A stretch of DNA of 33,774 nucleotides from Candidatus Cloacimonadota bacterium (lineage in GTDB: Bacteria > Cloacimonadota > Cloacimonadia > Cloacimonadales > Cloacimonadaceae). Below the pieces are notes generated by a model. It saw nothing but the letters and a program-made list of their open reading frames with translations, made no database searches and was not told where the DNA came from. Location of the stretch: contig JAKQNZ010000099.1 of NCBI GenBank assembly GCA_029565535.1, positions 1-33,774 on the forward strand, in the 5' to 3' direction. Position numbers and translations under genes: made by a program. Shown piece after piece: positions 7,018 to 25,424 of the stretch. Every line of letters starts with the position of its first letter. Within the stretch, counting starts at the first letter, position 1.

Positions 7018-8103
7018 ATGAAGATTCACGAAATAATGCGTAGCATCGATAACTTTGCCCCAACAACATTGGCGATGAACTGGGACAACGTAGGTCTGAT
7101 GGTGGGACAGAGGGACTGGGAAGTTAGCAAAGTATATGTAACGCTTGACGTTACGCCAACCGCAGTGGAGGAAGCCATATCGAAGGGATGTCAGCTTATC
7201 CTCAGTCATCATCCTTTGATTTTTAAGGCCCAGAAAAGCATTACCGACCCACTACTGATCAAGCTTATCCAGAATAGTATTGCGGTTATTAGCCTGCATA
7301 CCAATTTTGATGTGGCGGAGGACAGCGTAAATCATGCCCTGGCTCAAGCATTGGGATTCACCGTGATCGACCGGCTGACAGAAGAAAGCGGTGCGGGATA
7401 TCAACATCTTGTGGTCTATTGCCCTGTGGGACACGAAGACAGGATAAGCGAAGCAGCCTGGAACGCCGGAGCCGGAAAGATCGGCAGCTATCACAATTGT
7501 GCAATCAAGCACGAGGTGACAGGCTATTTCAGCGTAGAAGAACGCTCCAATCCCTTTGTCAGGAAGCCTGAAGGCAGTTCCGTGCAAGAAACCGCCCTGG
7601 AATTCATGTGTGATTCATTCAAACTCCACAGCGTTCTGAAAGCCATCAAAATCGCTCATCCCTATGAAACTCCAGCGCTATACCACTTTCCGGTGAGCAA
7701 CTCCAATCCGGCTTATGGTCTGGGTTTGGTATGCAAACCGGAACAGGAATCAGGTTTACACGAGCTTGCCACAAGGGTGAAGGAGCGTTTGGGTTGTCCG
7801 CATACCAAGCTGTGGACAGCCGGTAAAGACCTGGATACTCCGATAAGGAAAATAGCCATTTGCGGTGGCTCTGGAGGAACGCTTCTTGCAGCAGCCAGTG
7901 CCAAAGCTGAGCTATTTATAAGCGGGGATATAACTTACCACACATTCCTGGACAGCCGCATCCCAATTATTGACGTTGGGCATTTCTATACAGAATATCC
8001 CGCTTTACATAAGCTTGGCGCTTTTATTAAAGGGATAGGACTGGCCGCAGAGATCATGCAGCCGGAAAAACATGAGTATAGTAGGTTCTTATCACTACCC
8101 TGA
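7018..8103 (+). CDS. Nif3/YbgI family dinuclear metal-centre protein (DUF34)
   Basis: The 361-residue protein starts at an ATG after a GGAAAGGA box. The NIF3 metal-binding residues are visible: H64 and H65 in LSHHPLIF, D98 in HTNFDVA, and H322 and E326 near the C-terminus (GHFYTEYPAL). The length and the central segment of about residues 130-235, with HPYE at 214-217, mark the long form found in many bacteria, which carries a PII-like insert between the two halves of the metal domain. Family members are often annotated GTP cyclohydrolase I type 2, but the cellular role is not firmly established, so no enzyme is assigned. It appears monocistronic, lying between two long spacers. Likely cytoplasmic. 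Confidence 0.9.
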   Translation: MKIHEIMRSIDNFAPTTLAMNWDNVGLMVGQRDWEVSKVYVTLDVTPTAVEEAISKGCQLILSHHPLIFKAQKSITDPLLIKLIQNSIAVISLHTNFDVAEDSVNHALAQALGFTVIDRLTEESGAGYQHLVVYCPVGHEDRISEAAWNAGAGKIGSYHNCAIKHEVTGYFSVEERSNPFVRKPEGSSVQETALEFMCDSFKLHSVLKAIKIAHPYETPALYHFPVSNSNPAYGLGLVCKPEQESGLHELATRVKERLGCPHTKLWTAGKDLDTPIRKIAICGGSGGTLLAAASAKAELFISGDITYHTFLDSRIPIIDVGHFYTEYPALHKLGAFIKGIGLAAEIMQPEKHEYSRFLSLP

Positions 8104-8574
8104 AGTAGAGAATCATATTCAACTTATAAAGAAAATCACCTTTCCTTATCCATTGCTTGACCAGGGATTTACTTTGTAACATATTTTTCTCCCATCTGGA
8201 TTTGTGCTTGAGATAGATCTCAAATCATTGTTACAGGTGAAGGTATGCAACACTTTTCTTATTAGGTGGGATGGATATCAGCTTCGAAAACACACTGGTA
8301 AAGTTATTGGATTACTCCTGGACTGGATATATCTTCTCTGCAAGTTCTCGAAATCCTATTTTATCAATATACCTTGAAAACAAGGCGTAGTTCCACCCCA
8401 TCATCTGCCTCGCAGTATGGGAGCAATAAGCGTGAAATAAGCGTCCGACGCTTAATTCACGCTTATTGCTCTCGAAATACCTCAGAGTTGTGAAAAAATG
8501 ATGTGCCAATGAGTGATTGTCTTTGTCTAAAAAATACTTAGATTGTTAGTTAGAATCTGTCTGGGGAGGATGAG
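8104..8574. other. 471-bp intergenic region with two dyad structures
   Basis: This spacer lies between the Nif3-family gene and the phosphorylase gene. I see no reliable gene. It has a nested dyad at 8175-8235 (outer TGTAAC/GTTACA, inner TTGAGAT-AG-ATCTCAA at 8208-8223) and the strong palindrome at 8421-8471 described separately. A 65-codon minus-strand frame (8312-8509) reads through the palindrome and is not supported. No clear Rho-independent terminator follows the Nif3 gene. Confidence 0.6.
8421..8471. promoter_or_regulatory. 51-bp four-box palindrome upstream of the phosphorylase gene
   Basis: Two 25-base arms flank a single central base (8446) and match with one mismatch. Each arm contains two direct copies of TAAGCGT spaced 11 bp apart: plus-oriented at 8427-8433 and 8438-8444, inverted at 8448-8454 and 8459-8465. 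The 11-bp spacing, about one helical turn, is what a cooperatively bound operator would look like. The sequence could also fold as a long RNA hairpin or be a mobile palindromic unit. It ends 103 bases before the phosphorylase start. No T-run follows, so a simple terminator is unlikely. Confidence 0.6.
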
Positions 8575-11031
8575 ATGAAAGACGCTTTAAAAGAAAAGAT
8601 TTCCCGCACCGAGATCCAGGACAGTGCCGAGAATATCGTTACCCGTTTTATTTACCATCTGAAATACACACAAGGCAAGGACCAGTTTTCCACCACTCCG
8701 ATGGACTGCTATCTCAGTTTTGCCGCTTCAGTGAAGGACATTTTACTTGACAAATGGCTGAAAACCCAACCCAAGGAATATGCCGCCCAGCGTAAAAGAG
8801 TTTACTATCTGTCCTTGGAATACCTGATCGGACGCAGCTTGAATAACGCCATCCTGAACCTGGACATCACCAAACAGAGCCAGAAAGCCTTGGAAGAAAT
8901 GGGTTATGACCTCAGCATAGTCAGCGAACTCGAATGGGATGCAGGCCTTGGAAACGGAGGATTGGGAAGGTTAGCGGCCTGTTTTTTGGATTCACTATCC
9001 ACCCTTAGAATCCCTGCTTTCGGCTACGGCATCCGCTATGAATATGGCATTTTTTTCCAACACATCAAAAATGGCGAACAGGTCGAAACACCCGACAACT
9101 GGCTTCGTTACGGCTCTGTTTGGGAGATTGGCCATCCCGAAAGGCTGTTCCCCGTCCAGTTTGGCGGATATGCCAGGGAAACGATGGATCATGAGGGCAA
9201 TAAACATAGCCAGTGGATTCCCGCCGATACGGTGATGGCCATGGCTTACGACTATCTGATTCCAGGTTTTCAAAACGACTATGTAAACACGCTTCGACTG
9301 TGGAGCGCCAAGAGTAGCCGTGATTTTAACCTAAGCTACTTCAACGAAGGTGATTACGTTCAAGCAGTGGCGGATAAAAACCACGGCGAAATGATTTCCA
9401 AAGTGCTTTATCCAAAAGACAACAAAATGCAGGGCAAGGAATTGCGCCTTAAACAAGAGTATTTCTTTGTCTGCGCTACTCTTCAGGATGTTTTACGCCG
9501 GTTCCACAAAAAAGATAATGATCTCAGGAATCTGCCCGAAAAAGCTGCCATACAAATGAACGACACCCACCCCGCCATCGCTGTGGCAGAATTGATGCGC
9601 CTGTTGGTGGATGAAAAGAATTTGAAATGGGAAATCGCCTGGGATATCACTCAACAAACTCTGGCTTACACGAATCATACGATCCTGCCCGAAGCCTTAG
9701 AAAAATGGCAGCTTAACCTCTTTGAGCAGATACTCCCCAGGCATCTGCAAATAATCTATGAGATAAACTTCCGCTTTCTGTCTCACCTGCGCCTGAATGC
9801 CTTCCCCGATCAGGAACTGATCCGTAAGGTGTCAATAATCGAGGAAGAACCGGTAAAAAGTGTGCGCATGGCAAATCTGGCTATCCTGGGTTCACATAGC
9901 ATCAATGGAGTTTCCGCTCTGCATTCAGAACTGCTGAAAACACATGTCTTCAAAGAGTTTTATAGCCTTTTCCCTGAGCGCTTTAATAACAAAACCAATG
10001 GGATAACCCCACGACGTTGGCTGATGCTCTGCAATCCACGTTTGACCGATCTGATCAGCAAAGCCATTGGTCCTGCCTGGAAAAACGATCTGATGCAATT
10101 GGAAAAGCTGAAAGTATACCGGAACGACAAAACTTTCCTGGAAGACCTGGGTGAGGTCAAGCTTCTGAACAAACAGGATTTCTGCAGTTATGTGGCAGAT
10201 ACGCACAAAAAAATCCTGAATCCCGACAGCATCTTCGATTTTCAGGCCAAACGCATTCACGAATACAAGCGACAACTTTTAAACGCCCTGGGCATCATCC
10301 ATCTGATCCTGAGAATAAAACGCGGCGAAGATATCTTTCCCCAGAGCTTTTTCTTCGCCGGAAAGGCTGCTCCCGGCTATTACGAAGCGAAACTGATCAT
10401 TCGCTTTATCACTGCCCTCAGCAGCTATATTGAGCATGATAAGCAGCTTTCTGAAAGACTTTCTGTGCTATTTCTACCGAATTACCGGGTTACCCTGGCC
10501 GAACGCATCATGCCCGCCGCTGAAATCTCCAAACAAATTTCAACCGCGGGAACCGAAGCCTCTGGAACCGGCAACATGAAATTTGCCCTGAACGGAGCTC
10601 TGACTATCGGAACCCTGGATGGAGCAAATATTGAAATGCGCGAAGCCTGTGGAGCCGATAACTTCTTCCTCTTCGGCATGACTGCCGCGGAAGTGGAACA
10701 CCTGAAGGCAAACGGCTACCATCCCTACGAGCTGATGCACAGCAACCAGGCCTTGAAGGATATCTTCGATTTTATTCAGTCCGACGAACTCTGCCCCCTA
10801 AGCCCGGGATTATTTACTCCCTTGCTCGATCTGCTGCTGCACCAAGGCGACTTCTACTGCCTGATTGCCGATTTGCCTGATTACCTGAGGGTTTGCTCGG
10901 AAGCGGCCAAAACCTATCAGAACAAGGCTGTTTGGAACGCCATGTCGCTGGCCAATATTGCTGCAATGGGGCGTTTCTCTTCCGATGAAACTATCAAAGG
11001 CTATGCCAGAGAGATCTGGAAAGTGATGTAA
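8575..11031 (+). CDS. glgP: Glycogen/alpha-glucan phosphorylase (GT35)
   Basis: This PLP-dependent enzyme releases glucose-1-phosphate from alpha-1,4-glucans. At 818 residues it has the normal length for the glycogen/maltodextrin phosphorylase family and is collinear with it: the N-terminal block with YYLSLEYLIGRSL (77-89), GLGNGGLGRLAACFLDSL (124-141), the NDTHP segment (329-333), NGITPRRWL (475-483), KRIHEYKRQL (559-568), and the PLP motif EASGTGNMKFALNG with the cofactor lysine at K669. The start ATG has a strong GGGAGG box 5 bases upstream. Substrate preference (glycogen, starch or maltodextrin) cannot be decided from sequence. It stands alone, convergent with polA; only 33 bp separate the two stop codons, with no visible terminator. 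Confidence 0.95.
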   Translation: MKDALKEKISRTEIQDSAENIVTRFIYHLKYTQGKDQFSTTPMDCYLSFAASVKDILLDKWLKTQPKEYAAQRKRVYYLSLEYLIGRSLNNAILNLDITKQSQKALEEMGYDLSIVSELEWDAGLGNGGLGRLAACFLDSLSTLRIPAFGYGIRYEYGIFFQHIKNGEQVETPDNWLRYGSVWEIGHPERLFPVQFGGYARETMDHEGNKHSQWIPADTVMAMAYDYLIPGFQNDYVNTLRLWSAKSSRDFNLSYFNEGDYVQAVADKNHGEMISKVLYPKDNKMQGKELRLKQEYFFVCATLQDVLRRFHKKDNDLRNLPEKAAIQMNDTHPAIAVAELMRLLVDEKNLKWEIAWDITQQTLAYTNHTILPEALEKWQLNLFEQILPRHLQIIYEINFRFLSHLRLNAFPDQELIRKVSIIEEEPVKSVRMANLAILGSHSINGVSALHSELLKTHVFKEFYSLFPERFNNKTNGITPRRWLMLCNPRLTDLISKAIGPAWKNDLMQLEKLKVYRNDKTFLEDLGEVKLLNKQDFCSYVADTHKKILNPDSIFDFQAKRIHEYKRQLLNALGIIHLILRIKRGEDIFPQSFFFAGKAAPGYYEAKLIIRFITALSSYIEHDKQLSERLSVLFLPNYRVTLAERIMPAAEISKQISTAGTEASGTGNMKFALNGALTIGTLDGANIEMREACGADNFFLFGMTAAEVEHLKANGYHPYELMHSNQALKDIFDFIQSDELCPLSPGLFTPLLDLLLHQGDFYCLIADLPDYLRVCSEAAKTYQNKAVWNAMSLANIAAMGRFSSDETIKGYAREIWKVM

Positions 11032-25085: not shown

Positions 25086-25271
25086 GTGGCCAAGAAATCA
25101 CTCATCATCAAACAGCAACGCACCCCCAAGTTCCAGGTTAGAAAATACAACCGTTGCATGATCTGCGGCCGGCCCCGCGCTTTTATGCGCGACTTTGGCA
25201 TGTGCCGTCTATGCTTCCGCAAGTATGCTTCCATGGGACAGATTCCCGGGATTACCCGCAGTAGCTGGTAA
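25086..25271 (+). CDS. rpsZ: Ribosomal protein S14, zinc-binding type Z
   Basis: This is the short, 61-residue zinc form of S14. Four ligand cysteines appear as two CxxC pairs, in [10 protein letters not shown] and CRLCFRKYA, followed by the end [11 protein letters not shown]. It starts at GTG (25086) after AAGGAGAGATAA. The zinc-independent, ~100-residue form is not seen here. The next recognised gene, rpsH, is 149 bp away, the longest gap between recognised genes in the cluster; it is filled by the small ORF at 25272-25424. Confidence 0.97.
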
Positions 25272-25424
25272 ATGAGAATGACGGTAAGCTCCTGCTCGAA
25301 CTGCGGATGCAATACGAATGAAATACGGATGGGATTCGTATTTCAAACGCAATGCTTTCCCAATTCAAGCCGGTTTGACTTATCCAAGAAAGAAAACACA
25401 CAGATAAATGAGGAAAACAAATGA
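25272..25424 (+). CDS. Possible 50-codon Cys-containing ORF between rpsZ and rpsH
   Basis: An ATG begins on the base right after the rpsZ stop (TAA-ATG). The frame runs 50 codons to a TGA that overlaps the rpsH ATG as ATGA. It would encode a peptide with a C8-x2-C11-x-C13 cluster (SSCSNCGCNTNE) and another Cys at 28, ending ENTQINEENK. No family is recognised. The usual strong ribosome binding site is missing, so it would depend on coupling to rpsZ. Codon choice (AGA, CGG) looks unlike the neighbouring ribosomal genes, which favour CGC/CGT. It may be a chance frame across a regulatory spacer. Confidence 0.25.
   Translation: MRMTVSSCSNCGCNTNEIRMGFVFQTQCFPNSSRFDLSKKENTQINEENK
25320..25344 (+). 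promoter_or_regulatory. Strong RNA hairpin upstream of rpsH
   Basis: GAAATACGGAT (25320-25330) and ATTCGTATTTC (25334-25344) form an 11-bp stem with one G.U pair and a GGG loop. An alternative stem, AATACGAAT/ATTCGTATT, uses the same right arm with 25311-25319. No T-run follows, so it is not a simple terminator. A role in S8/spc operon feedback is possible by position, but the internal-loop core known from the E. coli S8 site is not visible. Confidence 0.5.

Follow-up and report, generated by a model that had tools for sequence, protein, structure and literature searches.

An 11-bp-phased palindrome upstream of glgP in a Candidatus Cloacimonadota genome, a probable copy of a dispersed intergenic repeat class

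REPs and REPINs are short non-coding intergenic palindromes that form species-specific families of tens of copies, and their movement in trans is attributed to Y1 (RAYT) transposases (PMC3733652, PMC3116915). REP stems measure 5–13 bp (GTAG) or 8–9 bp (CGTC), and at one end a tetranucleotide tag, GTAG or CGTC, is left unpaired (PMC3733652, Table 1). In the Bacteroidales, Porphyromonas gingivalis carries the BrickBuilt MITE, a dispersed intergenic element of tandem short units that is present in 19 copies per genome; its units are 23 bp long, run in one direction and lie between leader and tail segments (PMC4596501). TAACTGA direct repeats occur in Beggiatoaceae, Cyanobacteria and Bacteroidetes as head-to-tail heptamers of one conserved sequence, which are located mostly just upstream of start codons and are almost never inverted (PMC4679880).

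The palindrome analyzed here lies upstream of glgP in a 33,774-bp stretch of a Candidatus Cloacimonadota genome (the window). Together with its counterparts in the same genome and in relatives, it resembles REPs and REPINs in being short, non-coding and intergenic and in forming species-specific families of tens of copies. However, the arms are about 20–49 bp long (25 bp in the window copy and up to 49 bp in relatives), and direct 11-bp units are repeated along each arm, an arrangement that is not a stated REP feature. No unpaired GTAG or CGTC tag was present in the flanks of the window copy (...CAGTATGG and TCGAAATA...), CGTC being confined to the arms, and identity with GTAG/CGTC REPs was rejected on both tag and stem length. 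BrickBuilt looked close in being dispersed between genes and built of tandem short units, but was rejected because of its 23-bp units, which form no facing 11-bp arrays. TAACTGA repeats likewise looked close, as short intergenic direct repeats common to distant phyla, and were rejected as head-to-tail heptamers. A search of the open-access literature found no prior description of 11-bp palindromic repeats or of Cloacimonadota palindromes. The class is REP/MITE-like in behavior, lacks the tag and the stem length of REPs, and is apparently undescribed.

Anatomy of the palindrome

The palindrome occupies part of the 471-bp gap between the stop codon of a DUF34/NIF3 gene (8103) and the start codon of glgP (8575), both genes being read in the same direction (Table 1). 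Its 25-bp arms are 96% complementary over a total length of 51 bp, with a single base at the center, and the TAAGCGT cores follow each other at 11-bp steps inside each arm. Coordinates and arm complementarity thus confirmed the first-pass annotation, which had described a near-perfect 51-bp palindrome with four TAAGCGT boxes, arranged as facing direct pairs at an 11-bp repeat with one mismatch over 25 bp. The inverted-repeat score was 22, whereas three rounds of local shuffling, applied to 190 kb of the genome, yielded no score higher than 12. Folded as single-stranded DNA, the palindrome reached -24.8 kcal/mol versus -5.0 kcal/mol in shuffles (z = -11.8). Chance origin is ruled out by the shuffles and the folding. 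TAAGCGT itself was found six times in the window versus 2.9 times expected; the exceptional feature is the arrangement of the boxes, and the boxes alone are unremarkable. The best internal period was 11 with a combined run score of 16, and the palindrome thus consists of facing arms with an 11-bp period. In a looser scan, the two top-scoring palindromes of the window both had period 11.

The window contains another palindrome of this class, in decayed form, between an rpsN-like gene (25086–25271) and an rpsH-like gene (from 25421), both named from reading of the translations. Its unit resembles a family in the congener G004.

Table 1. Locations of the palindromes, their parts and the neighboring genes. 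Positions are those of the window unless contigs are given.
Feature	Position	Strand	Description
DUF34/NIF3 gene	7018–8103	+	Upstream neighbor
11-bp-phased palindrome	8421–8471	.	11-bp units in two pairs that face each other across base 8446
Left arm	8421–8445	+	GAGCAATAAGCGTGAAATAAGCGTC; 25 nt
Right arm	8447–8471	-	GACGCTTAATTCACGCTTATTGCTC; one mismatch to left arm, base 8437 opposite 8455
Unit core TAAGCGT 1	8427–8433	+	
Unit core TAAGCGT 2	8438–8444	+	
Unit core TAAGCGT 3	8448–8454	-	
Unit core TAAGCGT 4	8459–8465	-	
glgP	8575–11031	+	Glycogen/starch (carbohydrate) phosphorylase; PF00343, 1037 bits
Decayed member of the same class	25291–25373	.	Units GCAATACGAAT / GAAATACGGAT; arms 73% complementary
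TCATACCRCTA sites	Window's genome (G000), contigs C6, C8, C10, C14, C32, C61 and others		Loci L212–L237

Dispersal of the architecture and replacement of the unit

When up to three mismatches were allowed, the AAGCGT palindrome was a single-copy sequence in its own genome, and among 107 genomes of the order a less strict pattern that kept the box spacing fixed matched no other. Among 85,000 species genomes, four AAGCGT cores in the same arrangement as in the window copy were matched in only three, namely Candidatus Cloacimonadota isolate clean597 (G066), which belongs to the window's family, and two Bacteroidales. Of 125 genomes in the phylum, 9 matched a three-core pattern and none the reversed control pattern. 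Copies were numerous in two of these relatives (58 strand matches in G017 and 17 in G009), with units such as AAGCGTTAATC, and in aligned copies an arm comprised as many as four 11-bp units. It is on anatomy and on kinship with these copies that the AAGCGT palindrome of the window is assigned to the class. In G017 (L141–L160), another hairpin, GCAGCATCGGCATGCTGC, often stood beside the AAGCGT palindromes, forming composite elements reminiscent of BIMEs. A viral origin was rejected, as the box patterns had no match in viral contigs.

In the window's own genome, the same 2+2 unit layout at nearly the same length (48–52 bp) was found at 24 sites with an unrelated unit, TCATACCRCTA, for which no match was obtained in 49 other genomes of the family. 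The alternative offered by the first-pass annotation, a mobile palindromic unit, is supported with the qualification that the AAGCGT version is single-copy here and the dispersed copies carry another 11-bp unit. Across 18 TCATACC copies, pairing in the spacer columns of both outer units was preserved by double changes (A-T to G-C in five copies and T-A to A-T in three, possibly from few independent events), and column 19/30 of the inner unit was not compensated. The same genome also contains, at locus L193 (3486–3540), a long hairpin with 25-bp arms (CTCCCCTCCCCTAATCCGAAAGCGG...) that has no 11-bp period.

Because the preceding patterns presupposed AAGCGT, the period of the arms was then compared without reference to any sequence. 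Long palindromes were collected from stretches sampled in the window's genome and its relatives, about 1.3 Mb of Cloacimonadota that within the order covered the window's family, and internal direct periods of 5–25 bp were compared. Of the 50 Cloacimonadota palindromes with repetitive arms, 46 had a period of exactly 11, three of 22 and one of 5. Because copies inflate such counts, related sequences were merged. This left 21 Cloacimonadota clusters whose arms were repetitive, of which 19 had period 11 and one had period 22. Two Bacteroidales genomes gave period 11 in six of seven palindromes, and the same scan of 200 kb of E. coli K-12 gave none. The sample is biased for G066, G009, G107 and G108, whose stretches were chosen on contigs known for AAGCGT elements, and unbiased for the other genomes. 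The Cloacimonadota palindromes comprised about 20 different unit sequences. Units recorded in the scan include TCATACCRCTA, AAGCGTTAATC, TCCCATATCAT, TCATTGCCCAC, CCTGCCRCGAC, TCATCAGGGAG, CCTTAGTATAA and, in Bacteroidales, TACGGTTAGAC. The 11-bp phase is thus constant while the sequence of the unit is freely replaced.

With a crude ORF caller, none of 43 located elements fell inside a long ORF. Their neighboring genes were convergent in 15 cases, tandem in 12 and divergent in 11, with five elements at contig edges, indicating no strong preference of orientation. One orthologous intergenic region was compared by means of a conserved block, which anchors it on one side. G066 and G062 carried palindromes that differ in their 11-bp units, at distances of 233 and 216 bp ahead of the block; in G033 a third palindrome stood about 590 bp ahead of it, and none was present in G064, G026, G063, G036 or G061. 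The G066 element was found in many copies in G063, G067, G030 and G036, and gave flank matches only in G013 and G062. This pattern suggests the gain, loss and replacement that are typical of dispersing repeats, from which we infer transposition itself. The class thus combines one architecture with intergenic dispersal, species-specific amplification and patchy presence in orthologous intergenic DNA. It is multi-copy, dispersed, non-coding and intergenic in the manner of MITEs, the AAGCGT version being the one that is single-copy in this genome. No obvious target-site duplication was seen in the flanks of the window copy, the regions compared offered no exact empty site, and no autonomous parent element was found; the entire element is the inverted repeat.

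Candidate explanations and a possible mobilizer

The first-pass annotation had favored a cooperative operator for an undescribed regulator of glucan breakdown. On this reading, as developed here, a winged-helix or similar protein bound to the two direct 11-bp boxes of each arm would control glycogen breakdown. The glgP start codon lies 104 bp beyond the palindrome, whose sequence is unique in the genome, and the direct 11-bp spacing recalls the boxes of the OmpR family. PhoB/OmpR-type regulators bind 11-bp direct repeats; their operators, however, are conserved before the genes of a regulon and are neither facing arrays nor dispersed with replaced sequence. Single-copy occurrence was borne out, but conservation was not: a comparable palindrome was absent from all 14 other glgP loci examined, including seven of the same genus (74–77% protein identity), and therefore it is no conserved glgP operator. 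NIF3 was likewise not found as the neighbor of glgP at these 14 loci. The same anatomy stands between unrelated genes in relatives, and with unrelated sequence it recurs 24 times in this genome. Both the absence from orthologous glgP loci and the scattering elsewhere had been named by that annotation as evidence against its proposal, and we consider an operator very improbable. An intrinsic terminator of the NIF3 gene is scarcely credible. A strong hairpin does lie downstream of the stop codon, but no T run follows either arm, so that the palindrome is not a standard terminator; it was also missed by a terminator scan, is located 317 bp beyond the NIF3 stop codon, and has symmetric internal repeats that termination would leave unexplained.

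Two further readings address the class as a whole. If the elements were transcribed, proteins might bind or cleave them as double-stranded RNA, with effects on how stable the mRNA is, how it is processed or where transcripts end. Double-stranded RNA forms an A-form helix with 11 bp per turn, which the phase of the units matches exactly. The fold is very stable, the outer spacer columns of the TCATACC family stay paired, and the second window copy lies between two ribosomal-protein genes of the same direction. On the other hand, divergent intergenic regions hold the elements as frequently as tandem ones, the inner-unit column 19/30 lacks compensation, and some loops are of zero length (e.g., TCCCATATCATTCCCATATCGCGATATGGGA...), which is easier to reconcile with a dyad in DNA than with a loop in RNA. 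Rfam 15 at the gathering score returned no known structured RNA in the window or at the elements of eight loci that hold them, and an RNA function appears unlikely. A chromosome-organizing or segregation site, at which a nucleoid protein would bind phased arrays whose copy number is maintained for that purpose, would agree with the dispersal, the intergenic placement and the helical phasing. Against such a site, the unit sequence varies between and within species, several unit families occur together in one genome (G004 and G012), and the density of long palindromes in the stretches sampled from close relatives varies between 0 and about 87 per Mb; we regard this role as quite improbable.

The palindrome upstream of glgP is, in our judgment, probably one member of a dispersed class of short non-coding palindromic repeats that is present in Cloacimonadota and in two Bacteroidales genomes. 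It belongs to this same judgment that the copy would have no dedicated role in glgP regulation, and that glgP transcription would be affected, if at all, only incidentally. Each arm of such an element is a head-to-tail array of two to four units of exactly 11 bp, with the arms facing each other around a short or zero-length center. The elements would be non-autonomous and copied by a putative trans-acting protein, which may read repeated contacts one helical turn apart, either on the duplex or on a single-strand hairpin.

Since Y1 transposases move REPs, Y1 (HUH) transposases were sought as candidates for this protein. Nine period-11 palindromes were found in 84 kb around 30 Y1 loci versus four in 139 kb of glgP loci, a 3.7-fold difference with a one-sided p of about 0.02 that is uncorrected and confounded by intergenic content. 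The association between Y1 genes and palindromes is weak. Copy number had no clear relation to the presence of Y1_Tnp alone, and G001 and G011 possessed Y1 genes with no palindrome in the sampled stretches. Related Y1 genes of the same subfamily (81% identical) were found beside different units in G067 and G021, an observation that suits an IS targeting palindromes as well as it suits a mobilizer. NCBIfam classes the Y1 proteins as IS200/IS605 and not as REP-associated transposases; two of three matched the RAYT model, far below the cut-off. An IS200/IS605-like Y1 (HUH) transposase acting in trans might thus be put forward, tentatively, as the leading candidate, and another DNA-binding protein may fill the role instead.

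Further observations concern individual Y1 loci. Loci L202, L204 and L205 contain related IS200-like tnpA genes that share 75–81% identity. Their 5' non-coding region is conserved and rich in repeats, and an 11-bp-phased palindrome follows 24–260 bp downstream. On contig C10 of the window's genome, a partial Y1 transposase gene at the contig end (L189, 11881–12300) is located about 490 bp from a TCATACC palindrome.

A more speculative extension, which we consider possible and hold with less than even confidence, is that these are mobile palindromes shared across phyla, whose machinery may recognize the architecture of facing 11-bp-phased units more than their sequence, each species, or even each element family of a genome, having its own unit at an unchanging phase. 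Sequence tags are the usual means of defining dispersed palindromes in bacteria, and a class with an invariant phase and interchangeable sequence would escape family-based searches. Such a class would imply a recognition rule that is so far undescribed. Palindromes phased at 11 bp should not be taken for gene-specific operators, and an arm period of 11 provides a simple, testable signature with which the protein that reads or mobilizes the elements could be sought in phyla that are poorly cultured.
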